NCBI RefSeq assembly: GCF_003337305.1
Contig: NZ_QPJO01000002.1
Location: 496,001-560,000, forward strand
From: Winogradskyella arenosi
Lineage (GTDB): Bacteria; Bacteroidota; Bacteroidia; Flavobacteriales; Flavobacteriaceae
Direction: 5' to 3'
Length of the DNA: 64,000 nt
Positions 24,759 to 62,553 of this stretch are shown in pieces; within the stretch, counting starts at the first letter, position 1; each line of letters opens with the position of its first letter. The notes beneath the pieces were generated by a model. It searched no databases and was not told the DNA's origin. It saw nothing but the letters and a program-made list of their open reading frames with translations. A program made the translations under genes and the position numbers.

Positions 24759-24805
24759 ATCACGGAATACTGTGATAAATACAATTGAGATAAGCTCTAA
24801 TTTCG
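24759..24805 (+). promoter_or_regulatory. Regulon promoter 1 (palindrome + 21 bp + -7 box)
   Basis: Palindromic element ATCACGGAATACTGTGAT at 24759-24776, 21 bp, then TAATTTCG at 24798-24805, 34 bp before the lipoprotein gene start. It is one of ten promoters in this window with this exact layout. Confidence 0.75.
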
Positions 24806-24839
24806 AAGCCTATAAATTGCAATTCCTTTGGAGCTAAAA

Positions 24840-25544
24840 ATGAATACTAAAAGCTACTTATTACATTTCCTGAGCTTAGCTCTGTTTCTGAATTTTTCGT
24901 GTACCTCACCTAAGGTAGGCGACCAGGCCTTAAATTTAAATCAGGTCGATTTAGATTTTAATGTGGGTTATTTTTATGGGGATGCTTTGCAAGAGGCTAA
25001 AATGGACCAGGAGCATAAGGCAGCAAGAGCTGAGTCGGATAGAACGCTTCAAGGGGCGAGTAGGGTTGAGGTTCATAAGATTTACACTGCGCCTTACAGT
25101 GCGCATAAAAAGTATATCGGTATGGACTATAAAATCTTGAATAAGAATTCCGGAAAAAACCTAAGCTATCTTAAAGATTGGGAATTTAATAATGTGGAAA
25201 TGCTTCAAAGTCCAGATGAAAATTTTATGGCTTTGTGTTCTAACGCTCATGCCTTTGGTAAATCGCAGACCGAGGCCTTTCAAAATAAATTTCAAAATTT
25301 AGTTAAGTTTCTAACGGCGCAATACGGAGCACCGGAGGTAAAAAAAGATGCTTTTCTGCAGGAAGGCACACTTTATAATTGGCAGTTAAATGATCGGTTA
25401 ATCGCATTGACTTATGAGTCTGATGTATTGAACTCAGGACATAAAAGTCAACCTATTGCTGAATTTAATTATTATATGGTGCATAACGCATATTTAAATA
25501 TTGTAAGAGACGATATTATTGAAGGGCCTTGGGTGATGTTATAA
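24840..25544 (+). CDS. Lipoprotein of unknown function
   Basis: 234 residues from the ATG at 24840 (a TTG at 24828 is in frame but less likely). Lipobox NFSC near residue 21. The mature chain of about 210 residues is mixed alpha/beta and not recognised; it contains YIGMDYKILNKNSGKNL and a C-terminal HNAYLNIVRDDI. It is the first gene behind regulon promoter 1 and is followed after 25 bp by another secreted protein, probably in the same mRNA. Confidence 0.65.
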   Translation: MNTKSYLLHFLSLALFLNFSCTSPKVGDQALNLNQVDLDFNVGYFYGDALQEAKMDQEHKAARAESDRTLQGASRVEVHKIYTAPYSAHKKYIGMDYKILNKNSGKNLSYLKDWEFNNVEMLQSPDENFMALCSNAHAFGKSQTEAFQNKFQNLVKFLTAQYGAPEVKKDAFLQEGTLYNWQLNDRLIALTYESDVLNSGHKSQPIAEFNYYMVHNAYLNIVRDDIIEGPWVML

Positions 25545-25569
25545 AAACAATTGAACTAATCCATGTCTT

Positions 25570-26466
25570 ATGAAAAGCATCATCGTACTTCTCTTACTTA
25601 TGAGTGCCACTTTCCATGCTCAAGAACTAGATGTGGATAACACGCAACCCATTAGTTTAGAGCAATTGCACTTAAACGGAAAGGTAAAACAGATTACAAC
25701 CTACAGGCAGACCAAGGAAATCGATGCTAAACCTATTATAGCTGCGGAAAAAACGTTTGACAAAAACGGACTTTTGATGTTACACAAAATTTATTATCAA
25801 GGTCGTTTACAGATGACGTTTTGTTACACTTATAAAATTGGAAACGTAGAAACCTTGACTGAAATTGAAGCGGCTCCTTATGGAAATACCACCTTAAAAA
25901 ACTTTAGCTATTTAGAACAACAGATAAAAATGCAGGCCTATGTTGAAGGTGTTTTAAGGGACGGTTTTATTCGAAAAACCAATAACAACGACCAGGTATT
26001 GTATTCTAAGCATGAAAATTATGTCTCTAATTCTTATTGCGAATATGGGTATACTTACTACGAAAATGTTAAGGTAAAGCAGCAACAAGGCAATTGTTTT
26101 AAAGATGGTGCTAACCATTACAGCTACCGTGTAGATTATACGTATAAGAATGATTTACTCGTGAAAAAGCAACGCTCTAATAGCATCTCAAAAAATGACT
26201 CTTCCATAACCGAAATTTATAGCTATGATAACGCTCAGCGCTGTATTAAAATGGAACGCTATATAGATACCGTATTAGTAAATAAAGAAACAAAAGTGTA
26301 TGCTTCTGGTGTTTTAAAAGAACATCACTTTTTTAATAAGGCTGATAAGGAAACAAAGGTTATAAATTTTAACTATGACCCGCAGCAGAATCTTTGTAGA
26401 AAGTCTGTAGTTGATAAGACCTACAACACAACGCTGATCTACACCTATGATATCGCTTACTTTTAA
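25570..26466 (+). CDS. Secreted protein with YD/RHS-like beta-strand repeats
   Basis: 298 residues, signal peptide about 1-17 (ends FHAQ). The mature chain consists of short beta-strand units with Tyr at regular positions (VDYTYKNDLLVKKQRSNS, EIYSYDNAQRCIKMERY, INFNYDPQQNLCRKS), resembling the YD repeats of RHS proteins or MORN-like strands. There is no toxin domain. It probably shares a transcript with the preceding lipoprotein gene. The role is unknown. Confidence 0.6.
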   Translation: MKSIIVLLLLMSATFHAQELDVDNTQPISLEQLHLNGKVKQITTYRQTKEIDAKPIIAAEKTFDKNGLLMLHKIYYQGRLQMTFCYTYKIGNVETLTEIEAAPYGNTTLKNFSYLEQQIKMQAYVEGVLRDGFIRKTNNNDQVLYSKHENYVSNSYCEYGYTYYENVKVKQQQGNCFKDGANHYSYRVDYTYKNDLLVKKQRSNSISKNDSSITEIYSYDNAQRCIKMERYIDTVLVNKETKVYASGVLKEHHFFNKADKETKVINFNYDPQQNLCRKSVVDKTYNTTLIYTYDIAYF

Positions 26467-26797
26467 AATTTATAGACCATTCAGAGTTTCTTCGGCCTAT
26501 AAATTAACCATTCAGAATGCGTTTCCAAGATCTTAGGTGTAAGTATTAGGTATTTGCATTTTAAACAGGAACTCCTTTATATTAACAGGATTTAAAAGGG
26601 CCTCAAAAGCGAGTTTAAACTTAGTATACATTCTTGAAAAAACGCATTGATAGTGCTCTCAGTTCACGATTTTGTATTAATAAATTACGAACAAAGTCTG
26701 GCTAAAAGCTGTCCTGTGATTTCTAAATATCACTGAAAACGGTTAGAAAAACACTCTAATAATACGTCAACTTTGTAGGAAATAATAAACGAAAATT
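26467..26797. other. 331-bp intergenic region with a regulon promoter
   Basis: Apart from the promoter at 26729-26775 no gene or RNA is recognisable. It begins with a weak dyad sequence after the preceding stop (ataaattaaccattcagaatg) and is AT-rich. Confidence 0.5.
26729..26775 (+). promoter_or_regulatory. Regulon promoter 2
   Basis: Element ATCACTGAAAACGGTTAG at 26729-26746 (left half-site intact, right half degenerate), 21 bp, then CAACTTTG at 26768-26775. It drives the TssD-like gene pair. Confidence 0.68.
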
Positions 26798-27487
26798 ATG
26801 GATTTTAAAACAATGTTACAGTTTCCGGTGTTAGATCCGCAAAGCATAATACAAATATTAAAAGAGATAGCCGATATAGAACGCAAAGAGGAACGCCCTC
26901 AAATGCCGCAAGTAACGATCAGTACACATTCTGATAGTGCTTCAGGTTTTTTTGTAAATTATGATTCTGAAAAACATACCATTTTGTTATGCGATATGTA
27001 TGACCGTAAATCTGAATTTCAATATATAGACTCGCGCTCTATTTCTTCTATCACGCTACGAAATGTAGACAAATACGCTTACTTATTATCAGATGGTAAG
27101 GTGCCATTAACACCAAATCCAGATGAAATCCCAACCGTACTTCAGCTTAAAAAAGATATTAAGGCTTTAGAAGAAGACTTAGAAGGACGTTTAGAAAAAG
27201 CGCTTTCAATAGCGTTTAAATATGAAGATAATCCTGAAGATTTAGAGAAGTATTATGCTTCTAAGGTGCTAAAATTATTACAAAGTACATTTTGTAATAT
27301 CGCTTCTGATCCTTTAGCGAAAACAGCATTTACAGAAGCCGTCTCTACGGTTAATTTCAGCTTAGGTTCAGAAAATAAAACCGTTAAGGATAACAAGGTG
27401 ATTAGCATAACAGTTGATACCTCTAAAGGGTTAAAAAGTATCGTTAAAGACAAGCAATTACAAGAACAAATTGAGAAATTTCTATAA
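26798..27487 (+). CDS. Unknown protein upstream of the TssD-like gene
   Basis: 229 residues, cytoplasmic, not recognised. Residues 35-110 look like a small beta barrel (VTISTHSDSASGFFVNYD, TILLCDMYDRKSEFQYIDSRSISSITLRNVDKYAYLL), followed by a helical stretch (about 118-165) and a Ser/Thr-rich beta C-terminus. It is 18 bp from the TssD-like gene and shares a regulated promoter, so it is probably a functional partner. Confidence 0.6.
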   Translation: MDFKTMLQFPVLDPQSIIQILKEIADIERKEERPQMPQVTISTHSDSASGFFVNYDSEKHTILLCDMYDRKSEFQYIDSRSISSITLRNVDKYAYLLSDGKVPLTPNPDEIPTVLQLKKDIKALEEDLEGRLEKALSIAFKYEDNPEDLEKYYASKVLKLLQSTFCNIASDPLAKTAFTEAVSTVNFSLGSENKTVKDNKVISITVDTSKGLKSIVKDKQLQEQIEKFL

Positions 27488-27505
27488 ATCCTAAAATAAG
27501 AACAT

Positions 27506-28543: not shown

Positions 28544-28590
28544 CTCACGGAATTCAGTGAGGGCAGAGCTTGTATATTAGGCTACATTTA
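28544..28590 (+). promoter_or_regulatory. Regulon promoter 3
   Basis: Element CTCACGGAATTCAGTGAG at 28544-28561 (palindromic apart from one position), 21 bp, TACATTTA at 28583-28590, 19 bp before the next ATG. The region is divergent with the gene at 28064-28459, which has its own -7 box and at best a degraded element. Confidence 0.72.
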
Positions 28591-28609
28591 TCTTATAGAC
28601 TTGAGTATT

Positions 28610-29668: not shown

Positions 29669-30304
29669 TTAGTCAAATAAGCCTGATTCTATAGCATATT
29701 TTACAGCACCCGTGGTGGTTTTAGATCCCGTTTTTAAGAGGATATTTTTCCTATGGGTTTCAACGGTGTTGACCGAAATAAATAACTTTTCTGATATTTC
29801 TTTTGAAGTCAACTCATCGCCTAAAAGTTTTAAAACTTCCTTTTCACGAGGCGACAACTCAATGTTTTTATACTTTTTTCGTTCAAACACACTTTCCATA
29901 TAACGTTGCTTAATCAATTCAGAAAAGTACTGTTCATCATCTAAAACCGTTCGTACTGCCTTTTGCAACTCTTCCTTGCTCGTAAATTTAGGGACAAATC
30001 CATCGGCACCTTTTTGTATCACTTTATGTACAGTTCTGTGATTGTCTAACATACTCAGCATAATTATTTTTACGTGACTATGTTTCTTTTTAATTTCTGT
30101 GAGCAGCTCTATCCCATCCATTTTAGGCATGCTGATATCACTAATTATTAAACCGATTTCAAATTGTTTTAACAAGCGCACCACTTGTTTCCCTTCAGTG
30201 GCCAGGTGAACCTCGCCAATTTCTTCCATATCACTTAAAATGGTATTAATACCCTCAAGAAACATTAAATGGTCGTCTGCGATAATTATATTTATTTTCT
30301 TCAC
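29669..30304 (-). CDS. NarL/FixJ-type response regulator
   Basis: 211 residues. The receiver domain has acidic D10-D11, phospho-acceptor D56 (IISDISMPKMDG) and the usual conserved Lys. The C-terminal LuxR/GerE HTH is LSPREKEVLKLLGDELTSKEISEKLFISVNTVETHRKNI. It lies 6 bp after the kinase gene and is the last gene of the ten-gene operon. LuxR-type dimers bind ~20-bp inverted repeats, which fits the palindromic element in ten promoters of this region, including the operon's own; that link is inferred. Confidence 0.92.
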   Translation of the reverse strand: MKKINIIIADDHLMFLEGINTILSDMEEIGEVHLATEGKQVVRLLKQFEIGLIISDISMPKMDGIELLTEIKKKHSHVKIIMLSMLDNHRTVHKVIQKGADGFVPKFTSKEELQKAVRTVLDDEQYFSELIKQRYMESVFERKKYKNIELSPREKEVLKLLGDELTSKEISEKLFISVNTVETHRKNILLKTGSKTTTGAVKYAIESGLFD

Positions 30305-30310: not shown

Positions 30311-32281
30311 TTAGTTTATGGGGATGTCTATGGTAATTGAGGTACCATGACCTGGACGACTATCAATATCTAAAGTCCCTTTTACTTTTTGTAAACGTTC
30401 TTTGATATTTCGGAGTCCTATCCCTTGATTTTTTTTATGATTTTGAAAGCCTTTCCCATCATCATTAATCACAATATTTAAATGGTCCTTATGTCGTGTG
30501 AGTTGCACATCAACATGGTTAGCTTCGGCGTGTTTTAGAATATTATTAATCAATTCTTGCACAATACGGTAAGCATCGGCTAAAATTTCATCGCTTAATT
30601 GGTCGATCTCTTCTTCTGGAAAGAAAAAGGTTTGAATTTTTATGTCTGATTTTTTACCCACCTGATTAAGAAAATCACTTAAAAAACTCGTAAAGCCCAT
30701 TTTAGAAAAGGGGAGAGGGTGCAGTTGGTGTGATAGACTGCGCACATCAAGACATGCATTACTAATAGCCTTGGCAATACGTTTGGTCTGTGGATCATCT
30801 TTATGGTTTTCGGTATAATGTTCAAACGCAATTTTTATACTCGCCAAATCACTACCAATACCATCGTGAATTTCTCGTGCTAACCGTGAACGTTCTTCGT
30901 CTTGCCCTTCTTGGTAACGCTCAATCACGGATAATTTGTGATCTTTCATCATCTCAGAAATTTTCTGTTTAGCATTTTTTTCTTGTTGCAAACTCAATTC
31001 CTTTTGGATGCGTAAGCGCTTCACATACGATAATCTAAGAATGACTAAGATGGTTAAGACCAATATAAATCCGGCAATGAGTGCATTTCTAATTAAGCGC
31101 TGACGTTTTACCGTGAGCTCCGCCTTTTGCAATTCCGTATCACTTAATTTTTGCTCTTTTTCTAAAAGCTTAATTCGAGTTTCTTTTAACTGCGTTTCAT
31201 AACCTTCCTGGATGTTGGCAACGTATTTTTCTTTATCTAAAGAATTTTGTTTTTCACGACTCAAAACCCCTTTTTGATAAAATTTTAAAGCATTTTTATA
31301 ATTGCCTTCCGCTTCATAAAGCATGGCCAAGTTTTTATAAATTTCAGAATTATAAGGCAATAAAGCTTGATCTTCACCAATTTTTAAGGCTCTTTCAAAA
31401 GCTGAAATTGCAGCTCTTCGGTGTCCTAATTTACTTTCACACAGGCCTAAATCGTTTAAAACGATAACAAGATCTGAGTTAAATTGAAGCGCTTCTAAAA
31501 GGTTTAATGTTTTTCTTAAGGCAACCACGGCCTCTTCACAGCGCTCCTCTTGTACTAACATTTGAGCAAGGTTAATATTGACGTAGGCCATAACCGCTTT
31601 ATTGCCTTCCTTTTCCCTGTATTTTAAAACCGTTTTATAGTGTTTTCTGGCTTGCTCATATTTTCCTTCTTCTTTTAAAATATTCGCATAATTAAAAAGA
31701 GTGGTTAATACGCCATCATCATCACCAATTTCCCTATAAAGATTAGCGGCTCGGTCTAAATTTTTGGCTGATTTTTTGTAATCTTTTTGAAATAAATAAA
31801 GGGTGGCAATATTTTGATAAGCATTGGCCTCTTGAATTTTATTATCGGTCTTTTCAGCATAATTTAAACATTGAATAAAACTATCCATCGCTTCAGGATA
31901 GCGCCCTAAATGTTTATAGCCCGAAGCTAAAATATTATAACAGGCGGCAAGTCCTTTTTCTAAATTAATGAATTTTAGTAGGTTGATGGCTTCGGTAGTG
32001 TACGTTATAGTACTTTTATAATCTCCTGAAATATTTCCTAAATTTCCTAAAGCATACAAGGCGCGAGCCACTTGTAAGTCCATTTCTAAAGCTCTACTCT
32101 GTTCTAACCAGTGCAAGGCAGCTGTTTTGGCGACCTGTGGATTGTTGTAAACATTTTGGCTGTAAACAGTAGAAAGGGAGTCTATTAAAGGTGTATTCTG
32201 GGGTTCTTGCGCTTGCAGGCAACCGCACAATCCGCAGAAAATGAACAGTAATTGACTTATATATTTTGTAAAGAAATTCAT
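30311..32281 (-). CDS. TPR sensor histidine kinase (HisKA_3 type)
   Basis: 656 residues from the ATG at 32281 (a TTG at 32293 is less likely). Signal sequence 1-25, TPR repeats (about 35-370), one membrane span near 400-420 (RNALIAGFILVLTILVIL), a coiled coil, a HisKA_3 box SRLAREIHDGIGSD with H472, and a HATPase domain with NNILKHAE (N box), NDDGKGF (G1) and GIGLRNIKERL (G2). Its partner is the NarL-type regulator directly downstream. The periplasmic TPR part probably senses a protein or cell-envelope signal. Confidence 0.93.
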   Translation of the reverse strand: MNFFTKYISQLLFIFCGLCGCLQAQEPQNTPLIDSLSTVYSQNVYNNPQVAKTAALHWLEQSRALEMDLQVARALYALGNLGNISGDYKSTITYTTEAINLLKFINLEKGLAACYNILASGYKHLGRYPEAMDSFIQCLNYAEKTDNKIQEANAYQNIATLYLFQKDYKKSAKNLDRAANLYREIGDDDGVLTTLFNYANILKEEGKYEQARKHYKTVLKYREKEGNKAVMAYVNINLAQMLVQEERCEEAVVALRKTLNLLEALQFNSDLVIVLNDLGLCESKLGHRRAAISAFERALKIGEDQALLPYNSEIYKNLAMLYEAEGNYKNALKFYQKGVLSREKQNSLDKEKYVANIQEGYETQLKETRIKLLEKEQKLSDTELQKAELTVKRQRLIRNALIAGFILVLTILVILRLSYVKRLRIQKELSLQQEKNAKQKISEMMKDHKLSVIERYQEGQDEERSRLAREIHDGIGSDLASIKIAFEHYTENHKDDPQTKRIAKAISNACLDVRSLSHQLHPLPFSKMGFTSFLSDFLNQVGKKSDIKIQTFFFPEEEIDQLSDEILADAYRIVQELINNILKHAEANHVDVQLTRHKDHLNIVINDDGKGFQNHKKNQGIGLRNIKERLQKVKGTLDIDSRPGHGTSITIDIPIN

Positions 32282-32304
32282 ATGAATAAGCAAACTTAAT
32301 CTCT

Positions 32305-38868: not shown

Positions 38869-38915
38869 CTAAGATACTTTGGAACCTCGGAGTTTTTATC
38901 ACTGAAACTAGTGAT
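38869..38915 (-). promoter_or_regulatory. Regulon promoter 4
   Basis: Element at 38898-38915, read on the minus strand as ATCACTAGTTTCAGTGAT (arms ATCACT/AGTGAT perfect), 21 bp, then TATCTTAG (38876-38869). It is an internal promoter before the SMI1/KNR4 gene. Confidence 0.72.
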
Positions 38916-41408: not shown

Positions 41409-41410
41409 AA

Positions 41411-41777: not shown

Positions 41778-41824
41778 CAAAGTTAATGGGAGAGGTCTTA
41801 GTTTTTATCCCTGATAACAGTGAT
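41778..41824 (-). promoter_or_regulatory. Regulon promoter 5 (main promoter of the ten-gene operon)
   Basis: Element at 41807-41824, read on the minus strand as ATCACTGTTATCAGGGAT, 21 bp, then TAACTTTG (41785-41778), 16 bp before the start codon. It is divergent from regulon promoter 6, whose element starts 32 bp away. It would place the operon's own two-component genes under the element, hence possible autoregulation. Confidence 0.76.
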
Positions 41825-41856
41825 ATTAATTTATGAGGACTACTTCCGAAGAAAAA

Positions 41857-41903
41857 ATCACGGAATACAGGCATTTGGTATTTCTAGAAGCGACTTACTT
41901 TTG
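41857..41903 (+). promoter_or_regulatory. Regulon promoter 6
   Basis: Element ATCACGGAATACAGGCAT at 41857-41874, 21 bp, TACTTTTG at 41896-41903. Its position shows that the downstream gene starts at ATG 41925 and not further upstream. Confidence 0.73.
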
Positions 41904-41924
41904 AAAACGTATAAAACCGAAATT

Positions 41925-42830: not shown

Positions 42831-42937
42831 AACCTTTTTAATCCCTGAAATGAGGCTTAACTAATTTTAAATTGGTGTACTTGATAAGGGTTAAAATTGA
42901 AGTTTACGAGTATAGTATTTTATAAATTAATTTGGTT

Positions 42938-44848: not shown

Positions 44849-44863
44849 TATCTTTGTGGTCTT

Positions 44864-45616: not shown

Positions 45617-45728
45617 TTGAATTCTCTTTCAAGTAAGGTATTTCCTAAATACTTACCGTCAAATTCTTATGCAAGTCTATATTAATAGGATATAGGGTTA
45701 AATTTGCGCTCTAAAATAATTTTAATTG

Positions 45729-46590: not shown

Positions 46591-46637
46591 ATCACTAGAT
46601 TCAGTGATAAAAAGCGTCACGTTCCGCTCTAATTTTG
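46591..46637 (+). promoter_or_regulatory. Regulon promoter 7
   Basis: Element ATCACTAGATTCAGTGAT at 46591-46608 (arms ATCACT/AGTGAT perfect, extended by TT/AA outside), 21 bp, consensus -7 TAATTTTG at 46630-46637, 26 bp before the start codon. Confidence 0.8.
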
Positions 46638-49926: not shown

Positions 49927-49973
49927 ATCACTGAAAACCGTTACCTAAAAACCTAAGCAAAACAGCATATTTG
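49927..49973 (+). promoter_or_regulatory. Regulon promoter 8
   Basis: Element ATCACTGAAAACCGTTAC at 49927-49944 (left half intact), 21 bp, CATATTTG at 49966-49973, 27 bp before the start codon. It heads the long plus-strand gene string 50001-57905. Confidence 0.68.
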
Positions 49974-50000: not shown

Positions 50001-50750
50001 ATGGACAAAGCTAAATTTGAAGAGATAGTTAAAATTGAAAAATACGATTTATATAAAAAAGAAGCATATTTAAGATCCGTAATGTTACCCTCTATTAAAA
50101 TAGTAGGAGAAAATCGCAGTAAAGAAAATGTAGGTTTAAGTAAACAAGGAGGCTATCCAGAAGTGCCTGAAGATTTTGAATGGCCTAAACACGAGTTTGG
50201 TGATTATCGTTTTGCATTACAAATTAATTTAAGTGAAATTAAATTTGAAACGCCACTACCAAAAACAGGAATGTTAAGTTTTTTTATCGCTAATGATGAT
50301 GATAAAAATGTATTTTTTGGAGCAAAAGATTATGCAAAAGTCTATCATTTTGAAGAAGGTACTCCCTTAAAAACCTATATAAATCCTAATTTAGATTACT
50401 TCTATGTAGATCATTGTATACGAATTGATTTGCAAGAGAATGTAGATATACCTTACAGAGAAGAGTTACATAAAGACAAAGGATTAAATAAAAGACAACT
50501 AGATTACGTATGCAGTAAAGTACCAGATATGGTAAGCAAAAAAACATTTAGTTATTTATTTGGATACCCATATTACAACACCTTAGCTTATGATCCGCGT
50601 AAAACAGATGAGTGGACGTCGTTACTTACGTTACGATGGAATAATGTTTTTTCTTGGGACTGGGATATGGATGAGTTTCTAATGTTTTTTATTGAAAAAG
50701 ATAAACTCGCCAAAGGTGACTTCTCTAATATAAGAACCGATTTAGGATAA
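50001..50750 (+). CDS. DUF1963 (YwqG-like) protein
   Basis: 249 residues. SKQGGYPEVPEDFEWP, FALQINLSEI and PLPKTGMLSFFIAND match the start of DUF1963 (KxGGxPxLPxxxxWP ... QINLxE ... LPxxGxLxFF). The C-terminal part has GYPYYNTL and WDWDMDEFLMFFIEKDKL, as in YwqG proteins. These are widespread cytoplasmic proteins of unknown action, frequent in immunity clusters. First gene of the 50-58 kb string; the next gene is 10 bp away. Confidence 0.8.
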   Translation: MDKAKFEEIVKIEKYDLYKKEAYLRSVMLPSIKIVGENRSKENVGLSKQGGYPEVPEDFEWPKHEFGDYRFALQINLSEIKFETPLPKTGMLSFFIANDDDKNVFFGAKDYAKVYHFEEGTPLKTYINPNLDYFYVDHCIRIDLQENVDIPYREELHKDKGLNKRQLDYVCSKVPDMVSKKTFSYLFGYPYYNTLAYDPRKTDEWTSLLTLRWNNVFSWDWDMDEFLMFFIEKDKLAKGDFSNIRTDLG

Positions 50751-50760
50751 CATTATAAGT

Positions 50761-51186
50761 ATGAAAATAACCAAAGATAGGCTTAAAAAAGATCCACGGA
50801 GTGAAGATTGTTATAGAACAACAATTGAATCAGATCAGCAAAAAATTGATATCAGCCTTAATTTAGAAGACATTAGTTTAGAGGAAATGATTGCTTTAGG
50901 AAATTTATTTTTTGAAGATTTTGAAGATAAAAAGAACAAAGCCACAGATGAAATCGTAAGTGCGTTTCACAAAAATTATAATGAAAATTGGGCCGATGAA
51001 GAGAATGGCTATCCTGTATTAAATGCGGAAGAATTCAGACAAAAATTAACAATAACAGCCATTCATTTTTATGCCAAAGACTTGATAGACGTGATTTATC
51101 AAGAAGATGGAATGTTTGGGAATCATTATTTAATCGCACAATCTTATGACGGTGAAAATTTTGACGATGCCACAATGTTTGGATAA
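50761..51186 (+). CDS. Small acidic protein, DUF2262/DUF2004-like
   Basis: 141 residues: N-terminal beta region, a middle helix, then LTITAIHFYAKDLIDVIYQEDGMFGNHYLIAQSYDGENFDDATMFG. The FGNH...DGENFDDATMFG ending resembles proteins of the DUF2262/DUF2004/DUF6985 group, which occur in toxin-immunity regions. It is tightly placed between two DUF1963 genes (10 and 11 bp gaps). Family identity is uncertain. Confidence 0.55.
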   Translation: MKITKDRLKKDPRSEDCYRTTIESDQQKIDISLNLEDISLEEMIALGNLFFEDFEDKKNKATDEIVSAFHKNYNENWADEENGYPVLNAEEFRQKLTITAIHFYAKDLIDVIYQEDGMFGNHYLIAQSYDGENFDDATMFG

Positions 51187-51197
51187 AAATTAAAAAA

Positions 51198-51905
51198 ATG
51201 ACTGTAGAAGACCTAAAAAATAAAATATCTAAACCCGTTACTAAATTTACGACCGGTGGTTTTAGACCAAAAAACACTATTGAAGAAAGCTGGATAGGTA
51301 AAGTCTTTGCGTATCACGACGATGAAGAGATTCCGTTAGATAAAAACGGAAATCAAATGTTTCCGTTGGCGCAATTTTACCTACCTAATTTGCCTTACGT
51401 TCATCCAAGTCTTAAGCATACAAAACTCATCACTGTTTTTGTTTCCGCAGAATGGCCAGAGTGTTTTGAAGAAATGGGAGACCATTGGCTCCTTAGAGAA
51501 TATGACAGTCTAGACCGTATCAAAATTAAAAATTTAGAAACTCCTAATGCGGTTATAAAACCTTTTCCGCTACAAGCAGAATTAGACAACAATGATTTTC
51601 CGTTATGGGACGGTGGCGGTTTATCTCTAGAAGATGAAGATGAAGTTTTAAAACTAGAAAACGAAGGCATTATTGAGGATTATTTTGATATCACCGACCA
51701 CATCTACGATCATAAAATAGGCGGTTATCCTTCTTTTTGTCAATCCGGAATTGGTGATGCAGAGGGCTTTGGTGAAGGTTTTCAGTTTGTGTTTCAAATT
51801 GTATCAGATTATAAAGCAAATTTAAACGTGGTAGATGGTGGTAGCTTAATGTTCGCCAAAAACAACAATACCAACCAATGGAGTTTGTATTACGATTTTT
51901 ATTGA
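51198..51905 (+). CDS. DUF1963-like protein (second copy, diverged)
   Basis: 235 residues. The C-terminal HKIGGYPSFCQSGIG ... GFQFVFQIVSDYKANLNVVDGGSLMFAKN is a YwqG-type GGxPxxxQ...fxFQIxSD...DGG core; the N-terminal 120 residues are unlike the neighbour at 50001. It is 11 bp after the preceding gene. It is followed by 102 bp without a regulon element before the SLOG gene. Confidence 0.72.
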   Translation: MTVEDLKNKISKPVTKFTTGGFRPKNTIEESWIGKVFAYHDDEEIPLDKNGNQMFPLAQFYLPNLPYVHPSLKHTKLITVFVSAEWPECFEEMGDHWLLREYDSLDRIKIKNLETPNAVIKPFPLQAELDNNDFPLWDGGGLSLEDEDEVLKLENEGIIEDYFDITDHIYDHKIGGYPSFCQSGIGDAEGFGEGFQFVFQIVSDYKANLNVVDGGSLMFAKNNNTNQWSLYYDFY

Positions 51906-52007
51906 AAGAATCAATTATACATTGACTGATACAAATATTAATGAATAGAATCAAATTTAGAGTTATCTGTTCTATTCAAATAAAATCTCATTTTCAATTA
52001 GCTAACT

Positions 52008-52355
52008 ATGAAAATAATAATAGCTGGTGGAAGAAGCTTTAAAGATTACGAAAAGCTTCACCAGGTATGTACTAAAATACTATCACAACAAAATAAAATT
52101 GAAATTGTAAGCGGAACAGCAAATGGAGCAGATAAATTGGGCGAAAAATTTGCAACGGATAATGGATTTCCTATAAAAAAATTCCCTGCTAATTGGGATA
52201 AATTTGGAAAAAGTGCTGGTTACAGAAGAAATGCTGAAATGGCTGAATATGCTGATGCTTTAATTGCTTTTTGGGATAAAAAAAGTAGAGGCACGCTACA
52301 TATGATAAATTTGGCGAAGCGTGCCAATTTAAAAATACGAATTATCTATTACTAG
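52008..52355 (+). CDS. YspA-type SLOG family protein (DUF2493)
   Basis: 115 residues. A Rossmann-like SLOG domain: MKIIIAGGRSFKDYEKL, IVSGTANGADKLGEKFA (the SGxAxGAD nucleotide loop), PANWDKFGKSAGYRRNAEMAEYADALIAFWD. SLOG proteins bind or process NAD- or ADP-ribose-derived nucleotides in stress and defence systems. It would be a good candidate signal-molecule protein of this locus. It is preceded by its own AT-rich promoter region. Confidence 0.85.
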   Translation: MKIIIAGGRSFKDYEKLHQVCTKILSQQNKIEIVSGTANGADKLGEKFATDNGFPIKKFPANWDKFGKSAGYRRNAEMAEYADALIAFWDKKSRGTLHMINLAKRANLKIRIIYY

Positions 52356-52404
52356 TTATCAATGACAGTTTTATAAATAAAATGTAAACTATTAAATCCA
52401 AAAA

Positions 52405-52926
52405 ATGGAAAACAAAAAAATAGAACAAGCCTACCAAAATACATTTTCAGGTTTAACAATGTACTATAGAGATTGTGAACTTTCAGAGGATTTAGTAACG
52501 CGCTATAAAGTAGATCAAATTATACAAGAACGTGGTTTTACAGATATCTCTAATCAAGCAGAAGGTTTAGCTAAAAATGTACGCTTTGCTATCGCCTCTA
52601 ATTCGGCTTCTAACTTAGGAGAAATAAATCCGGATGTAGCAAAATATGGTTTTCATTTAATTCCTTCTGGAGCTTATTTTAAAGTTTTAGATATTTATAA
52701 AATTGAGCATAAAACACAGATTATGCTAATGCATTTTAATGAAGCCTATTTAGAAATTTTCAACAGTACTAAATCTAACATTGAAGATAAAATAGTACTT
52801 GTGGGCAGAAAAAGTCTAGATACCAAAATAGTAATGCAACCTCATTCTATTTTAAATAACGAAGAATGGACAGCACGAACAGCAGATCCTATAGGAATGT
52901 CTAAAACAGGGACATTCTTTCTTTAA
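52405..52926 (+). CDS. Unknown protein
   Basis: 173 residues, cytoplasmic, not recognised. Helical N-terminus (KKIEQAYQNTFSGLTMYYRDCELSEDLVTRYKVDQII), a middle GEINPDVAKYGFHLIPSGAYFKVLDIYKI with beta strands, and a terminal WTARTADPIGMSKTGTFFL. It is 49 bp after the SLOG gene and 32 bp before the DUF2314 gene. Confidence 0.58.
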   Translation: MENKKIEQAYQNTFSGLTMYYRDCELSEDLVTRYKVDQIIQERGFTDISNQAEGLAKNVRFAIASNSASNLGEINPDVAKYGFHLIPSGAYFKVLDIYKIEHKTQIMLMHFNEAYLEIFNSTKSNIEDKIVLVGRKSLDTKIVMQPHSILNNEEWTARTADPIGMSKTGTFFL

Positions 52927-52958
52927 TAAAACAAAAATCATAACTAAAACAATACACA

Positions 52959-53714
52959 ATGAGTCAAGATAATAATATCGTTTTTGCCGAACAAAATCAA
53001 AAAATGAAAGCGGCTTATCGTAAAGCACAAGACACGTTTAACTATTTCTGGAGAGAAATTTATTGGGAAGCAAAGCGTGTGGTTCCTGCGCATAATTTAT
53101 CATTGGTTAAGATTCCTTTTCAACAAATGGCTGAAGGTGATGACCAACCAACTGTAGAACATATGTGGATTAGTGAAATTGCTTTTGATGGGGAATATAT
53201 TACAGGTGTTTTAATGAATTCACCTAACCTATTAACCAATGTTGCAGAAGGCGATACGGTGACTAGAAAAGTTTCTGAAATATCAGATTGGATGCTAGCC
53301 ATAGACCGTAAAACGTATGGCGGTTACACCATTCAGGTCTTACGTTCAGATATGACGGAGGAAGCCAGAAAACAACACGATGACGCTTGGGGATTAGATT
53401 TTGGAGACCCTAACAATATTCTAGTGGCTTATCAGCAGGAAGACAATCAAGAAAACCTGATTGAACACCCAATGAGTAAAGTGATGGAGCAACCGGCTAG
53501 AGATTATTTTGAAACAAATCTAGATGTGGTTAAAGCTGCTGATGAAAATGGAGTTACCAGACTACACACAGAAACTATTGCGGGAAACAAAATCGCTGTA
53601 GAAATTTTATTAGAATTAGGTGCCGATAAAAATGCCAAAACCAATACAGGAAAAACAGCCTTAGATTATGCAACGGCCTTAAATTGGGAGCATATTATTC
53701 CTGTTTTAAAATAA
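52959..53714 (+). CDS. DUF2314 (YegJ-like) protein with ankyrin repeats
   Basis: 251 residues. The DUF2314 domain is at about 25-130: VEHMWISEIAFDGEYITGVLMNSPNLLTNVAEGDTVTRKVSEISDWMLA, with GGYTIQVLRSDM closing it. Two ankyrin-type repeats follow at about 195-251 (NGVTRLHTETIAGNKIAVEILLELGADKNAKTNTGKTALDYATAL). DUF2314 and ankyrin proteins are common in immunity clusters, but the reaction is unknown. Confidence 0.82.
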   Translation: MSQDNNIVFAEQNQKMKAAYRKAQDTFNYFWREIYWEAKRVVPAHNLSLVKIPFQQMAEGDDQPTVEHMWISEIAFDGEYITGVLMNSPNLLTNVAEGDTVTRKVSEISDWMLAIDRKTYGGYTIQVLRSDMTEEARKQHDDAWGLDFGDPNNILVAYQQEDNQENLIEHPMSKVMEQPARDYFETNLDVVKAADENGVTRLHTETIAGNKIAVEILLELGADKNAKTNTGKTALDYATALNWEHIIPVLK

Positions 53715-53800
53715 TATTATAAACATTCTTTTAAGAATTGAACGTACATTTATTTCATAAATTTTGATATTCTAGAATTTATAAAAGAAAAAACCATAGA

Positions 53801-54406
53801 ATGAATAACATCGCAGACAGATACATTTCAGAACTTAAAAAGGCCTATTATAAGGCTAAAGGCAAAGCTATTTGGGATCATTTTGAAAACATAAAACACG
53901 GTGCATCTCAAGACGATATAAATGAACTTAAAGCCGATTGTCCTGCGGTTCCTGAGGCATTAATTGATTTATTGCAGTATGTAGATGGTACGTATTGGAG
54001 AACGTATGGTGATGAAGACATTGCGTTGACCTTATTGGGTTCTGATTTATCTAAATGTGACTATTACTTATTGTCGTCTCAACAAATCTTAGATAATCAA
54101 GGTGATGCGCCCTATAATTTTCAAGATTATTTAGATGGAGAATATGATGGTGTAGACAGTGATGAAAAAATCTTAGAAAAAGCTGAAGATTTGCATTGGC
54201 TTCATTTTGCAGATTGTACAAATAATGGAGGGACCTCTCAACTTTACATCGATTTTAGTCCTTCAGATAAAGGAAAAATGGGTCAGATTGTGAGGTTTCT
54301 TCACGATCCTAATGGGTTTGAAGTCATTGCAGATAGTTTTGAAGCCTATTTACAAATGCTGATTGCTAATGAATTTTCTTTTATAAGAGAAGGCTATTTA
54401 GAATAG
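53801..54406 (+). CDS. SMI1/KNR4 (SUKH) family protein
   Basis: 201 residues. LKADCPAVPEALIDLLQYVDGTYW, YLLSSQQIL, and WLHFADCTNNGGTSQLYIDFSPSDKGKMGQIVRFLHDPNGFEVIADSFEAYLQML are the conserved blocks of the SMI1/KNR4 fold. It is the second SUKH protein of the region. The preceding 86 bp hold an AT-rich promoter without the regulon element. Confidence 0.85.
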   Translation: MNNIADRYISELKKAYYKAKGKAIWDHFENIKHGASQDDINELKADCPAVPEALIDLLQYVDGTYWRTYGDEDIALTLLGSDLSKCDYYLLSSQQILDNQGDAPYNFQDYLDGEYDGVDSDEKILEKAEDLHWLHFADCTNNGGTSQLYIDFSPSDKGKMGQIVRFLHDPNGFEVIADSFEAYLQMLIANEFSFIREGYLE

Positions 54407-54430
54407 AATAATTTTTAAGTAAGTCATAAA

Positions 54431-54886
54431 ATGAATTTAGAAACCGCTATCACACAAATTAAAAACTTCAACGTCAATGACAATATGGAGGATTATGAAA
54501 TTAGTGAATTCTTTGATGCTATTGGCGATGAATTAGAAGATGTAAATCGTTTTACAGATTCACAAAAGCAACAACTTATTCAAACACTTTTTAATTTCTT
54601 AAAACGTCAAGATTCTGAGTTAGAAGAAGATTTTTCATTTATCCATTTTATAGAAGCTATAGATCAACCAGACTACAATATTTATAATACTGAATTACTG
54701 AATTTCAATACAGAAAATGGAACCATTACCTCTACATTGTTATTGAATAGATTCATCAATGCTTTAGAAGGAGAAGAACATAAAAAATACATCGGTTTAT
54801 TAAAATCGATTTCTGAGAATAAGAATTATACCGATTTAGTGAGAGCTGAAGCATTAAGTTATTATAAACATCAAAGGGAAAAATAA
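54431..54886 (+). CDS. Unknown helical protein
   Basis: 151 residues, all helical, acidic. SFIHFIEAIDQPDYNIYNTELLNF ... STLLLNRFINALEGEEHKKYIGLLKSIS looks like one or two HEAT/armadillo-like units. Its TAA overlaps the ATG of the dioxygenase gene by one base (TAATG), so it is translationally coupled to it and may be a partner. Confidence 0.62.
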   Translation: MNLETAITQIKNFNVNDNMEDYEISEFFDAIGDELEDVNRFTDSQKQQLIQTLFNFLKRQDSELEEDFSFIHFIEAIDQPDYNIYNTELLNFNTENGTITSTLLLNRFINALEGEEHKKYIGLLKSISENKNYTDLVRAEALSYYKHQREK

Positions 54887-56109
54887 TGAATACAGAAAAC
54901 GCTCTCTCAAAAACTAAAAACGTTTTAATTGATTTAAGTACTTCAGAGACTAAATCAGAAGCATTAGATTACTTGTTAGCCAACTTTAACGGATGTGTAG
55001 TAACACATTTTTCTGATATTGAAAACACAGAAAAGTCAATCCGAATTTTTGCTGTTGGAGATATAAGTTTGTTAGATGCAAAAGCGGAAGACATTTTCAT
55101 TATCAAAGAATTTTCTTCTCATTATGAAAACCATTCTACATCAAGTTTTAATGTGATTAGTGAAGGGCAAGTTCCAATTAATTTACACAATGCAGGTGTG
55201 TTTTATCGTCGGTTTTTTGAAGACGATAATTACTTTTCAAAAATAGAAAAAGAACATCAATTTCAAAATTTAACCGAGTCTACAAAACAATCGGTAGCCT
55301 TGCGTAAGGGCATTTATCTATCAGAAGTTACTAAACACGAATCTGCAACAAACAAAGAAGAATTACATTTTAAATTGTTAAGATGTTCTAGTAATTTAAC
55401 CGGTGCCACCGATAATTTTAGAGCGACAGACCAGCATATTGTAAACAGCATTAACAACGCAGTAACTTTTGATTTTGAAATACCTACCGAATTAAACCAC
55501 GTATTGGCTCAGATTTACGAGAATAAAAAGAAAGATAAAGACCATCCTAAAGATGTAAAAGCGAAGATAAAAGCGCATTCCGACAAAACGAAAGATATGC
55601 CTAAAGAAGGTTTAATTGCCTTCTGTACGTTTTACGATCATACTAATTTAGATAAGTTAAGTCGCTCTAAAACGAATAAGTTCGATAGAATTTACGGGAA
55701 GTCTAGCGGTTTATCACGATTACTTTTTAAACTAAAACCCTCTGTAAAAGATGCTACTTTGGTGAAAGAATTTAGCGTCACATTATATCCAAATTCGGTG
55801 TTTGTTATTCCGTTATCGACCAATCGTTTGTACACGCACGAAATTAGACCTTCGGTTTTAGATATCGATTTAATCCCCATTAGAATGGGTTATGTAATGC
55901 GTTGTTCTAATCTAAATGCCGTCTATACCAACAACCAAACCTATATAAAACAAGATGAGGAGTTGATACCATTACAAACAATGGACACGGAAAATTTAGA
56001 AGATTTAAGAAGCTCGTATTACGAAGAAAACAAAACGGTAAAACGCGTTAATTATGGTAAAGTACATTTTAGTATGAATACCGGAGATTATAAAAAACCA
56101 ATTTTGTAA
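54886..56109 (+). CDS. AlkB-like 2OG-Fe(II) dioxygenase 1
   Basis: 407 residues. The catalytic core is in the C-terminal half: HSD (H231, D233) followed by GLIAFCTFYDHT, a distal His in LYTHEI (H318), and Arg in IPIRMGYVMRCSN (R333/R339) for 2-oxoglutarate binding. The N-terminal ~200 residues are extra to the usual ~220-residue AlkB. AlkB-type enzymes repair alkylated DNA/RNA or hydroxylate other substrates. It is coupled to the preceding helical protein, and another dioxygenase follows after 15 bp. Confidence 0.8.
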   Translation: MNTENALSKTKNVLIDLSTSETKSEALDYLLANFNGCVVTHFSDIENTEKSIRIFAVGDISLLDAKAEDIFIIKEFSSHYENHSTSSFNVISEGQVPINLHNAGVFYRRFFEDDNYFSKIEKEHQFQNLTESTKQSVALRKGIYLSEVTKHESATNKEELHFKLLRCSSNLTGATDNFRATDQHIVNSINNAVTFDFEIPTELNHVLAQIYENKKKDKDHPKDVKAKIKAHSDKTKDMPKEGLIAFCTFYDHTNLDKLSRSKTNKFDRIYGKSSGLSRLLFKLKPSVKDATLVKEFSVTLYPNSVFVIPLSTNRLYTHEIRPSVLDIDLIPIRMGYVMRCSNLNAVYTNNQTYIKQDEELIPLQTMDTENLEDLRSSYYEENKTVKRVNYGKVHFSMNTGDYKKPIL

Positions 56110-56124
56110 AGTTACTTTAAGCGT

Positions 56125-56919
56125 ATGAAAACACTTCCGTTTTATAAAACCACCATACCTCTAGAGAAGACGTTTTTTAAAGCCTTATCTGAAGAAATTA
56201 CTTTTGAAACTCTTGGCAAAGGTCGACTTGGGAACCATATTGTAAAGGAAACCACCAGAGGTGTGCCTTTAGTTAGAACCACGTCTAAATTCACTATTTC
56301 GCCGTATTATTTTTCTAAAAATCACCGTCATATTTTAGAGAAAATCAATCAAACCTTACGTTCAGAAGGGCAATCAGAACAAGAATTCAATTCTGGTTTA
56401 ATTGAGATTTACGATGAAAACTACACAAAAATGGGGTACCATTCTGATCAGAATTTAGATTTAGAACCGGACGCTTATATTGGTTTATGGTCGTGTTATA
56501 AAAATCCGGAAACGCTTACGGATGCATCGACTCGAATTCTTAGAATCAAAGATAAATCTACCGACGAAGAGTTTGATATCGCATTAACACAGCATTCTTT
56601 GGTGCTGTTTTCTGTGGAAGCCAATGCTAAATATTCGCATAAAATCATTTTAGAAAACCCAAATCGTGAAGCGCTAAAATTAGCCGATAATAAATGGCTT
56701 GGTATCACTTTTAGAACCTCTAAAACCTTGGTTGAATTCAGAAATAATAAGCCCTGTTTTGAAGATGGTTCTGTGATGGAACTGGCAAATGAAACGCAAG
56801 AAAAAGAATTTTATAAACAACGCGGAGAAGAAAATAGAAGTTTGAATTTTGCTTATCCGCCTTTAAAATATACACTTAGTAAAGCTGATTTAATATTGCC
56901 TTTAAGGACAGAACAGTAA
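56125..56919 (+). CDS. AlkB-like 2OG-Fe(II) dioxygenase 2
   Basis: 264 residues. Iron and cosubstrate ligands: MGYHSD (H106, D108), YSHKII (H172) and WLGITFRTSK (R197). The layout is that of an AlkB-fold dioxygenase; the N-terminal 90 residues (substrate lid) are not similar to the preceding enzyme. It follows dioxygenase 1 by 15 bp and precedes the endonuclease V-like gene by 24 bp. The substrate is unknown; a nucleic acid is inferred from the neighbours. Confidence 0.8.
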   Translation: MKTLPFYKTTIPLEKTFFKALSEEITFETLGKGRLGNHIVKETTRGVPLVRTTSKFTISPYYFSKNHRHILEKINQTLRSEGQSEQEFNSGLIEIYDENYTKMGYHSDQNLDLEPDAYIGLWSCYKNPETLTDASTRILRIKDKSTDEEFDIALTQHSLVLFSVEANAKYSHKIILENPNREALKLADNKWLGITFRTSKTLVEFRNNKPCFEDGSVMELANETQEKEFYKQRGEENRSLNFAYPPLKYTLSKADLILPLRTEQ

Positions 56920-56943
56920 TTAAAAAATAAAAGAACAAGAATT

Positions 56944-57453
56944 ATGATACTCGCTTTTGATACTTATTATTACGACGGAAAAGCCAAAACCATTGCGGTA
57001 AGCTTTAACGATTGGGAAGATGAAGCTCCAACGCAAATTTACTCCGATATTATTGAAGGTGTAGCACCGTACGAACCAGGTTCTTTTTATAAACGCGAAT
57101 TGCCGTGTATTTTAAGTTTACTAAAACAAGTGAATTTAGATGAGGTAGAATTAATTATTGTAGATGGTTATGTGATTCTAGAAGAAAAACACTTGGGTTT
57201 AGGAGGCTATTTGTACCAAGCTTTAGACCATAAAATTCCGGTTGTTGGTATTGCAAAATCTGAGTTTGTGTCTAAAACAGCTGTGTTTAAAGAAGTGTTT
57301 CGTGGCGAAAGTAAAAAACCATTATATGTCACGGCTATTGGTACGGACAGAGATGAGGTTTGTAACGCCATAGAACGTATGCACGGTAAATACCGAATGC
57401 CAACATTACTACAAATTGTAGATACAAAGACTAAAGAAAATACTAAGAATTAA
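56944..57453 (+). CDS. Endonuclease V-like protein
   Basis: 169 residues, shorter than the usual ~220. Motifs and likely metal ligands: FDTYY (D6), YEPGSFYKRELPCI (E52, as in the PYxPGxLxxRE motif) and IIVDGYVIL (D74), then LGLGGYLYQAL, VVGIAK, FRGESKKPLYVT and MHGKYRMPTLLQI. Endonuclease V cuts near deoxyinosine in DNA or at inosine in RNA. All three acidic residues are present, so it could be active. Placed directly after two AlkB-like genes, it suggests a base-damage or RNA-editing clean-up module. Confidence 0.85.
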   Translation: MILAFDTYYYDGKAKTIAVSFNDWEDEAPTQIYSDIIEGVAPYEPGSFYKRELPCILSLLKQVNLDEVELIIVDGYVILEEKHLGLGGYLYQALDHKIPVVGIAKSEFVSKTAVFKEVFRGESKKPLYVTAIGTDRDEVCNAIERMHGKYRMPTLLQIVDTKTKENTKN

Positions 57454-57473
57454 TACTTTTAAAAATTACAACT

Positions 57474-57905
57474 ATGAATGAAAATTTAATTATAACCTCG
57501 GTAGATGAACTAAAACCAATGTTTAGAAAAAATTACAGGGAGTTTATTGCAGAAAAACCAAGGACTGTAATTTTTGAGGAAGAAGAATTTACCTTATACA
57601 ATTTTGAAAAGATGATGGAGCGTACCAACATAGATGGAATGGAAGTTAGCCGTATTTACGCATTACATCCGTATGTTAAAACGTTAAGTGAATTTATGAA
57701 CCCGACATTTAAAGATTTAGATGGGTACAGATGGAGTTTAGAAAAATTAGCTTTAGGTAAAGCTATTGGTGCTAATTCTGAAGGTGATTTATTGTTTTTT
57801 GGTTGCTATGATAATACTAAAGTACATATATTTCGTCACGATGATGGCAGTATAAAGAGAACTAAATTAACCTTGTTTGAAATTATAAAACAGTTTTCTG
57901 AGTAA
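57474..57905 (+). CDS. Unknown protein, possibly SMI1-like
   Basis: 143 residues, cytoplasmic. It contains VIFEEEEFTLYNFEKMMERT, YALHPYVKTLSEFMNP and SEGDLLFFGCYDNTKVHIFRHDDGS, the last resembling the gdllfF.x..D.x.vf.hDg strands of SMI1/KNR4-like domains. It is the last gene of the plus-strand string, 20 bp after the endonuclease V-like gene and closed by a bidirectional terminator. Confidence 0.6.
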   Translation: MNENLIITSVDELKPMFRKNYREFIAEKPRTVIFEEEEFTLYNFEKMMERTNIDGMEVSRIYALHPYVKTLSEFMNPTFKDLDGYRWSLEKLALGKAIGANSEGDLLFFGCYDNTKVHIFRHDDGSIKRTKLTLFEIIKQFSE

Positions 57906-61690: not shown

Positions 61691-61737
61691 TAAAATTATA
61701 AAAGCACCTTGTTATTTTTATCACGGTATTCAGCCAT
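61691..61737 (-). promoter_or_regulatory. Regulon promoter 9
   Basis: Element at 61720-61737, read on the minus strand as ATGGCTGAATACCGTGAT (right half-site GTGAT intact), 21 bp, TAATTTTA (61698-61691). The element sequence is identical to that of promoter 10. Confidence 0.7.
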
Positions 61738-61790
61738 TTAAGAATATAATTATTACGATTCACCTCATGAATGTTTTAATTTTAAGAAAT

Positions 61791-61826
61791 AAAAAAAGGT
61801 ATTTACAACTATGTAAATACCTTTTA
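61791..61826. terminator. Terminator of the 61870-62484 gene
   Basis: Stem AAAAGGTATTTAC (61794-61806) / GTAAATACCTTTT (61813-61825), with T-rich sequence on the minus-strand 3' side. It isolates this gene from the LRR unit. Confidence 0.85.
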
Positions 61827-61869
61827 GAGAAGTGTAATTGCTATTAAAAGCAGCTTTTACTTTATCTAT

Positions 61870-62484
61870 TTATAATGGAATATGCCCAACAATAGCACCT
61901 TCTTTTACAACGAAAAGCGCATTGATAATGGGAGCATTTCCAAAACTATCGTCATTCCAAGTATGGTTGTGTAAGTAAACAAATTTGTTCACCGTATCTT
62001 CATCGGCGATTTTAGAGATCACCATCATACAGGTACGTCTAGGAATAGAAACTAATAATTCTTCGGCCTCTAACATAGCGTGCGCTTTTAACATATGCGA
62101 TTTAGAAAGAATACGCTCACTAGAAAAATCATTTCCGCTAGAGGCAAGAGCTTTGTTGTTAAGTGCTTTAACAAATTCGAAATCGGTATTATAAGCTTCT
62201 AAATTGGTAAAAGCCTCTTGGGTAATTTGTTTAGCATCCATAGTCTCTAAATGCTGTTGCGTTAAAAATACAAAGTTGTCTGGTGTATCCATACCGTACC
62301 CAATCACAACTTCAGCGCCATTTTCAGACGGAATTAAAGTTGAACTCAATGCTCCTGCTTTTAATCCAACCCAGTCGCCAGGTTTTAAAATAGGATAGAT
62401 TTTTTGATCGCTATTTTCAGTTTGCTCTACTATTTTAGCTATTTCTTCTGGTGTTTTTTCTGGTCCGTAAATGGTATTACTCAT
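61870..62484 (-). CDS. Unknown cytoplasmic protein
   Basis: 204 residues. KPGDWVGLKAGALSSTLIPS, then ERILSKSHMLKAHAMLEAEELLVSIPRRTCMMVISKIADEDT, and a terminal HNHTWNDDSFGNAPIINALFVVKEG. The latter half vaguely resembles DUF1444-type proteins (helix, hydrophobic strand, Asp-rich loop), but I do not assign it. It is a single gene with its own consensus regulon promoter (TAATTTTG) and terminator. Confidence 0.6.
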   Translation of the reverse strand: MSNTIYGPEKTPEEIAKIVEQTENSDQKIYPILKPGDWVGLKAGALSSTLIPSENGAEVVIGYGMDTPDNFVFLTQQHLETMDAKQITQEAFTNLEAYNTDFEFVKALNNKALASSGNDFSSERILSKSHMLKAHAMLEAEELLVSIPRRTCMMVISKIADEDTVNKFVYLHNHTWNDDSFGNAPIINALFVVKEGAIVGHIPL

Positions 62485-62506
62485 AATTATTTTTTTTTGT
62501 CTTGGA

Positions 62507-62553
62507 CAAAATTAGCGCAATAGTGGTTTTTTTTTATCACGGTATTCAGCCAT
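62507..62553 (-). promoter_or_regulatory. Regulon promoter 10
   Basis: Element at 62536-62553, minus strand ATGGCTGAATACCGTGAT, 21 bp, consensus -7 TAATTTTG (62514-62507), 22 bp before the start codon. Confidence 0.76.

Follow-up and report, generated by a model that had tools for sequence, protein, structure and literature searches.

What would set one and the same palindrome at one and the same distance from the promoter box ahead of ten operons, joining genes that look unrelated by annotation, and which protein would read it? The question is raised by a stretch of 64,000 nucleotides from Winogradskyella arenosi of the Flavobacteriaceae (contig NZ_QPJO01000002.1, positions 496,001 to 560,000; hereafter the window, whose own positions are given without prefix, positions on the contig being prefixed C2), in which an earlier note had reported ten copies of an 18-bp palindromic element on both strands, each followed by a promoter box and a gene start. 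All ten were located where they had been reported, and exactly 21 bp 3' of each, read toward the following gene, lies a TAnnTTTG-like box (10/10), which is perfect at 41807, 41857, 46591 and 62536 and carries one mismatch at the six other sites. The copies differ from ATCACTGAATTCAGTGAT by 2-5 mismatches; nine 18-mers of the window have at most four mismatches to this palindrome, eight of them being sites and one, at 54500, not, compared with 0, 1, 0, 0 and 0 such 18-mers in five Markov-generated control sequences. The spacers between element and box are unalignable between the promoters of this genome, and recent copying of a repeat was rejected on this ground as the origin of the element; the only two identical elements in the window are those at 61720 and 62536.

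On the plus strand, the element at 24759..24776 (box TAATTTCG at 24798-24805) heads the genes 24828-25544 and 25570-26466, that at 26729..26746 (CAACTTTG, 26768-26775) heads 26798-27487 and a TssD-like gene (27506-27898), and that at 28544..28561 (TACATTTA, 28583-28590) heads 28601-29602, followed by 41857..41874 (TACTTTTG, 41896-41903) ahead of a DUF6892/DUF7738 gene, 46591..46608 (TAATTTTG, 46630-46637) ahead of 46664-47311 and the genes beyond it, and 49927..49944 (CATATTTG, 49966-49973) ahead of a gene array at 50001-57905. On the minus strand, the element at 38898..38915 (TATCTTAG, 38869-38876) heads a six-gene operon that ends in a sensor and a regulator, 41807..41824 (TAACTTTG, 41778-41785) heads 41411-41761, 40548-41408 and 39414-40547 and probably also 38937-39353, 61720..61737 (TAATTTTA, 61691-61698) heads 61236-61610, the LRR gene 58792-61167 and 57988-58758, and 62536..62553 (box TAATTTTG again, 62507-62514) heads a DUF1444-like gene (61870-62484). 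The DUF6892/DUF7738 gene very likely starts at ATG 41926, which gives a protein of 301 amino acids as in its orthologs; the mechanical open reading frame start, GTG 41820 (41820-42830), was set aside because it lies upstream of the promoter and the orthologs have this shorter length.

If the element were a general promoter form, as the earlier note had cautioned, it should be common before unrelated genes across the genome; this was looked for in all 3.67 Mb with the two models described below and was not found. A weight matrix of the element alone, with the box excluded, was scanned over C2:456-640 kb (184 kb around the window) and gave 12 matches of at least 17.3 bits, the next best scoring 13.1, and three second-order Markov controls gave one match each at 13 bits or more. 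Ten of the 12 matches are the window sites and two are new, 6.8 kb past the window end, where they form a divergent promoter between a gene for a 1667-amino-acid DUF5724/DUF4132/DUF7737 protein and an LRR gene: C2:566751 on the minus strand, with box TACCTTGC (two mismatches) at 21 bp, and C2:566800 on the plus strand, with the perfect box TAGGTTTG at 21 bp. Model R1, built from the ten window sites with no structure and run on the 3.67-Mb genome, gave 14 matches at E<0.01, comprising the ten sites used for training, the two found beyond the window and a palindrome at C2:392622 read on both strands, and the next match had E=0.06. This further palindrome, ATCACGGAAATCGGTGAT, lies at C2:392624 with box TATATTGC (two mismatches) at 21 bp, directly before a paralogous two-component operon 128 kb away. 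Model R2 was built from 53 sites of other genomes only, so that the W. arenosi sites were outside its training set; it recovered 13/13 of these sites, and its only other rows at E<=0.1 in this genome were two antisense readings, of the palindromes 392624 and 41807. The genome thus holds 13 element places in 3.67 Mb, 12 of them in one region, which we call the island. The earlier note had not found the element at the promoters that it checked before 24.7 kb, and no match above 11.3 bits lies there or in the 40 kb preceding the window; the extent of 38 kb that it gave for the regulon is too small, the outermost island sites lying about 46 kb apart with one remote site in addition. The two divergent promoters, 41807/41857 in the window and C2:566751/566800 (L003:6751/6800) beyond it, each have two elements about 50 bp apart, and the paired arrangement is also seen at divergent promoters in relatives, at 50-53 bp and in some at 77-84 bp.

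Which protein would bind the element is suggested by the operon behind the element at 38898. This minus-strand operon runs from 38845 to 29669 with gaps of at most 40 bp and encodes, in order, a SUKH protein (37787-38845), a helical-solenoid protein (35209-37746, assigned from structure prediction), a DUF1266 protein (34545-35216), a TPR protein (32305-34548) and, last, a TPR-bearing sensor histidine kinase with HisKA_3 and HATPase_c domains (30311..32293) and a response regulator (29669..30304). In the domain scan the regulator shows a receiver domain (PF00072, 1.5e-28) followed by a GerE/LuxR helix-turn-helix (PF00196, 1.4e-14), as in the NarL/FixJ family, and its closest solved structures are VraR and NarL. 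We consider it probable, judging from sequence, that the element is the dimer site of this NarL-type regulator, which would switch on twelve island promoters, its own included. The sensor kinase would respond to a signal and phosphorylate the regulator, its proposed partner, a dimer of which would bind the palindrome. With the TAnnTTTG box placed at about -11 to -4, the palindrome would extend from -50 to -33 and its axis would fall near -41.5, as in class II activation by CRP. The bound dimer would take the place of the -33 element and recruit polymerase with the primary sigma factor to the box in class II activator fashion. Since the operon that ends with sensor and regulator is itself headed by the element, the circuit is predicted to be autoregulated and to reinforce itself, and the island would carry a dedicated copy of the regulator along with the matching sites. 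In PMC7366714, the Bacteroidota primary sigma factor is described as recognizing TAnnTTTG at -7 and TTTG near -33, with no -33 motif identified in Flavobacterium johnsoniae; an activator occupying the -33 place would be the natural reading of the arrangement found here.

The regulator and the element go together across the family. In a sample of 397 Flavobacteriaceae genomes, including that of W. arenosi, a regulator ortholog (cut-off E<=1e-60) is present in 7/397, the six others (6/396) being 82-95% identical, and absent at this cut-off from both same-genus genomes of the sample. A scan of species genomes found the regulator, again at 82-95%, in Flavobacterium frigidarium, Winogradskyella wichelsiae, Leeuwenhoekiella aestuarii and Mesonia hippocampi, below which identity falls to 40% (among the best 80 loci, from which near relatives of W. 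arenosi may be omitted). At least two R1 matches at E<=0.01 were found in 6/6 of the other genomes with the regulator and in 3/390 of those without it (G088, G119 and G300; Fisher p 1.6e-11), or in 7/7 regulator genomes if W. arenosi is included; for at least one match the figures are 6/6 and 17/390, the E-values being rough. Together with the element at the head of the regulator's own operon, these counts lend comparative support to the claim of the earlier note that the regulator controls the region and itself.

The island recurs, patchily within the family, in the ten relatives examined: G020, G352, G300, G106, G242, G263, G335, W. wichelsiae (G002), F. frigidarium (G001) and M. hippocampi (G004). 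A common set of operons is found in these genomes, with order and direction varying and the element preceding many of the operons. Within island limits set by hand, and with a matrix trained on the W. arenosi elements without the box (cut-off 14.5 bits), the ten relatives contain 69 elements. At 53 of these a box deviating at no more than one position stands 21 bp away, compared with 1.9 expected if boxes occur at the intergenic rate of 1.4% for each position on each strand. The second most frequent spacing accounts for 7 elements, and 22 bp for 5. Corresponding promoters in different genomes are not independent, and the ten W. arenosi promoters are the more independent sample because their spacers are unalignable. 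Across relatives the regulator is 82-96% identical and among the best conserved island proteins, compared with 58-79% for the sensor and 35-52% for the 35209 protein. In M. hippocampi, the relatives of gene 26798 and of the SUKH gene 37787 lie off the regulator's contig and have kept the element and the box at 21 bp. These off-contig sites are at C3:166138 and C6:5776 of that genome (L199, L200).

Several observations weigh against this assignment. Near-perfect boxes at 21 bp are missing from 16/69 of the relatives' elements: seven belong to DUF5724-type promoters with the box TAnCTTGC at 21 bp, three to 41411-type promoters (G352, G106, G335) whose box is perfect but 22 bp away, and one to a 28601-type promoter of G106 where the distance is 20 bp; two lie within open reading frames, and three have poorer boxes only (G352 4174052, G242 835926, G335 22786). 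The statement of the earlier note that not one spacing deviates accordingly stands for the window and fails in relatives, where the spacing is 22 bp in three genomes and 20 bp in G106. The 17/390 genomes that have at least one match at E<=0.01 and no regulator exceed the roughly 4 expected by E-value, G300 has six island elements (at least 16.7 bits) without the island regulator, and the promoter of the paralogous two-component operon is without the element in 4/9 genomes (G242, G352, G039, G125). Finally, the placement of the site relative to the transcription start is an assumption drawn from the box, and the same sequence pattern would result from repression. Lone matches in other genomes precede unrelated genes, such as asparaginase-like and alpha-2-macroglobulin-like ones.

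The last of these points corresponds to an alternative in which the palindrome is a repressor operator through which the regulator, or another dimeric protein, keeps the island off. Palindromes near promoters are often operators and the sign of regulation is not given by sequence alone; against this, the element in every case leaves the -7 box and the start region free, and a constant 21 bp better fits contact with polymerase, so that we consider repression improbable. The fixed distance to the -7 box would also suit an alternative sigma factor for which the proximal half of the element would serve as -33 box, a possibility that the earlier note had raised. Among 67 oriented elements (W. arenosi included, box at 21 or 22 bp), positions 2 (T) and 17 (A) are invariant and positions 5, 12 and 14 deviate in at most two, and conservation extends to both half-sites and is slightly higher in the distal one (mean 5.8 of 7 positions, compared with 5.5 of 7 for the proximal one), which makes a sigma factor unlikely; moreover, the -7 box matches the primary sigma factor, and the island proteins put through general domain scans include no sigma factor. 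We therefore do not favour this explanation and regard it as very improbable.

A second two-component system lies within the region itself, a LytS/LytTR-type pair that stands with a VWA gene at 42932..46439 (plus strand), between the 41820-type and 46664-type genes, and its LytTR regulator (44864-45616) could in principle be the binder, the more so as the ortholog in G376 lies 5.5 kb from a single element. That element, however, heads a NarL-type operon, and LytTR orthologs occur in 9/397 genomes (W. arenosi included) and in 0/6 of those sharing the NarL-type regulator. In G020, G352 and G002 the LytS/LytTR and VWA group is missing from the corresponding place, where the 41820-type and 46664-type genes adjoin, yet the sites remain. 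LytTR as the binder is scarcely credible on these counts and was rejected; the group is likely a passenger that appears to have been inserted.

More weight is due to the paralogous two-component system, an operon encoding a TPR sensor kinase (631 amino acids) and a NarL-type regulator (215 amino acids) at C2:392.7-395.3 kb, whose regulator (C2:394.7-395.3 kb) is 41% identical to that of the island. It might bind the sites alone or jointly, the island then being wired to a host circuit. Consistent with this, the paralogous operon is preceded by the element at 21 bp in 5/9 genomes (22.8 bits in W. arenosi, 23.3 in G376, 17.1 in G226, 13.6 in G300 and 12.9 in G106), G300 combines island sites with a paralog-type regulator and no island regulator, and the element is found at the DUF5724 promoters of G125 and G039, which have paralog-type regulators only. 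On the other hand, in G020, G263 and G335 the sites are accompanied by the island regulator and by no other relative of it above 40% identity, so that the paralog is not needed there. Binding by the paralog, alone or jointly, appears unlikely, though less so than the alternatives above. The paralog-type regulator of G300 (41%) is encoded about 100 kb from the island, and beside the island this genome has a different TPR sensor and a divergent regulator of 221 amino acids (L178:12380-14940); its sites may be served by either regulator.

The element is not a site of NarL-type regulators in general, an interpretation that was rejected: among more distant NarL regulators (31-40% identical, loci L027-L102), 1/72 operons has an element of at least 10 bits with a box at 21 bp (L095, 11.7 bits), compared with 1/564 of the other promoters of the same loci. 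Taken with its presence before 5/9 paralogous operons, this indicates that the element follows one subclade of NarL regulators. The DUF5724 gene, present in 15/397 genomes (E<=1e-150), extends the comparison. In the 7 regulator genomes and G300 its promoter has the element (12.7-20.8 bits), followed at 21 bp by TAnCTTGC. The DUF5724 locus of G125 has an element of 18.3 bits and TATATTTG at 21 bp, ahead of the preceding small gene; G039 (17.9 bits) and G265 (8.0 bits) have AATTTTTG at 21 bp, and in G226 (11.6 bits) the element and TAGTTTTA, again 21 bp apart, lie about 600 bp upstream. In G303 (16.1 bits) a box is present only at 22 bp, and the element was not found at the DUF5724 promoters of G056 and G133. 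The regulator relatives of G125, G039 and G226 are 41-43% identical, and G303 (40%, E 2e-34) and G056 (32%) have no paralog-type regulator. The ancestor of the island system is likely the chromosomal paralogous two-component system, and in the simplest history the paralogous regulator would have formed an older circuit with the operon that encodes it and with the DUF5724 operon, the island being an enlarged version with its own regulator copy. A second conserved palindrome, CCCTGAAAACAGGG-like, lies between the paralogous regulator gene and the next gene (L007:10373-10390; also L265:6264, L182:1453 and L264:1834), well upstream of a second possible -7 box; the next gene encodes a membrane protein of about 140 amino acids in W. 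arenosi, G106 and G352, and the palindrome is perhaps a second type of site for the paralogous regulator.

With the island regulator as the preferred binder, the regulon is of a known kind, NarL-type and probably class II, with an unusual organization, being wired almost entirely within one patchily distributed island. NarL/FixJ regulons such as those of NarL, RcsB and VraR share with it the receiver and GerE helix-turn-helix and an inverted-repeat site, and the island differs from them in the sequence of the site, in the single exact promoter address of 13 promoters and in its near-confinement to one patchy island. Class II activators such as CRP resemble it in the inferred dyad near -41.5 that replaces the upstream promoter box. 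The start position in the island, however, is assumed from the box, and sigma factor and core promoter are of the Bacteroidota type (PMC7366714). Among the titles and beginnings of abstracts listed in a literature search, with most subscription journals outside its coverage, none concerns this element, regulator or island. We know of few activator sites in Bacteroidota whose promoter address is exact. Here the address rule is clear, a candidate regulator can be named, and W. arenosi has 13 places and ten relatives have 69 elements, so that the prediction is directly testable.

What the island does can be approached through its gene content. The array at 50001..57905 (plus strand) encodes two DUF1963 proteins, a DUF2262 protein, a DUF2314 protein with ankyrin-like repeats, a SUKH protein, a SLOG-like protein, a 2-oxoglutarate (2OG)-oxygenase and an endonuclease V-like protein, and is in part immunity-array-like. 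SUKH, LRR and ankyrin proteins are among those given for heterogeneous polyimmunity loci in PMC3482391, where DUF2314 appears as the polymorphic toxin immunity family Imm34, with known fusions to ankyrin repeats; the island resembles these loci in its tandem same-strand small genes, including SUKH, DUF2314 and ankyrin-like repeats, with an LRR protein nearby. It differs in that only part of it fits, several operons share a two-component switch and many members are not known immunity families, those without a known immunity role including DUF5724/DUF4132, the solenoid protein 35209, a VWA-like protein and an adenylosuccinate-synthetase-like protein. The Gac/Rsm pathway acts post-transcriptionally, unlike the proposed island switch. 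The defence clusters of Pseudomonas under its control (PMC8926400) are alike in that several clusters obey one sensory pathway, and their Arc3A is DUF2339, which was not met among the scanned island proteins.

A known defence system was rejected, a PADLOC scan of ten island proteins having given a single match, to the SUKH protein 37787-38845 (PDC-M40A, 1.1e-14). A type VI secretion system is suggested by one gene at most, the TssD(Hcp)-like protein 27506-27898 being the only TssD-family match in the genome, where no search aimed at the type VI core families was made. A defence programme may be a fair guess. It is quite possible, if not quite probable, that the island is a self-wired, horizontally moving plug-in, in which a conserved regulator copy travels with its palindrome at one promoter address before each operon and members located elsewhere stay in the circuit through this tag, as in Mesonia; it would then constitute a signal-triggered, promoter-coded flavobacterial defence programme made of toxin-immunity arrays and uncharacterized DUF5724/DUF4132, LRR and VWA/PurA-like proteins. 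The prediction joins about forty poorly annotated genes in one co-expressed programme (operon extents being inferred), with DUF5724/DUF4132, DUF6892, DUF1266, DUF1963, SUKH, LRR, TssD-like and VWA/PurA-like families, and an inducer of the regulon would open a route to the function of these families, given that DUF4132 is seldom named in the searched literature.

With respect to mobility, the proteins put through general domain scans include no recombinase families and the window contains no tRNA; in an empty-site comparison, the chosen flank genes were not found in two same-genus genomes. A CitMHS-type transporter gene (23256-24587) flanks the island in W. arenosi, G020 and W. wichelsiae, at the opposite end in G020. 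The predicted structure of the 35209-37746 protein (mean predicted local distance difference test score, pLDDT, 82) is a helical solenoid whose HEAT-type matches are generic and of low template modelling score (TM-score), and that of the 26798-27487 protein (mean pLDDT 87) has no structural match at E<=0.001. The latter, of 229 amino acids, is paired with the TssD-like protein and belongs to a family of at least 38 members, the named ones being from flavobacteria. The conserved triad at 39414-41761 encodes a charged protein of 116 amino acids, the VWA-like protein, so assigned by eye and from the names given to its relatives, and the adenylosuccinate-synthetase-like protein. Relatives of the VWA-like family number in the thousands, some of them outside Bacteroidota.

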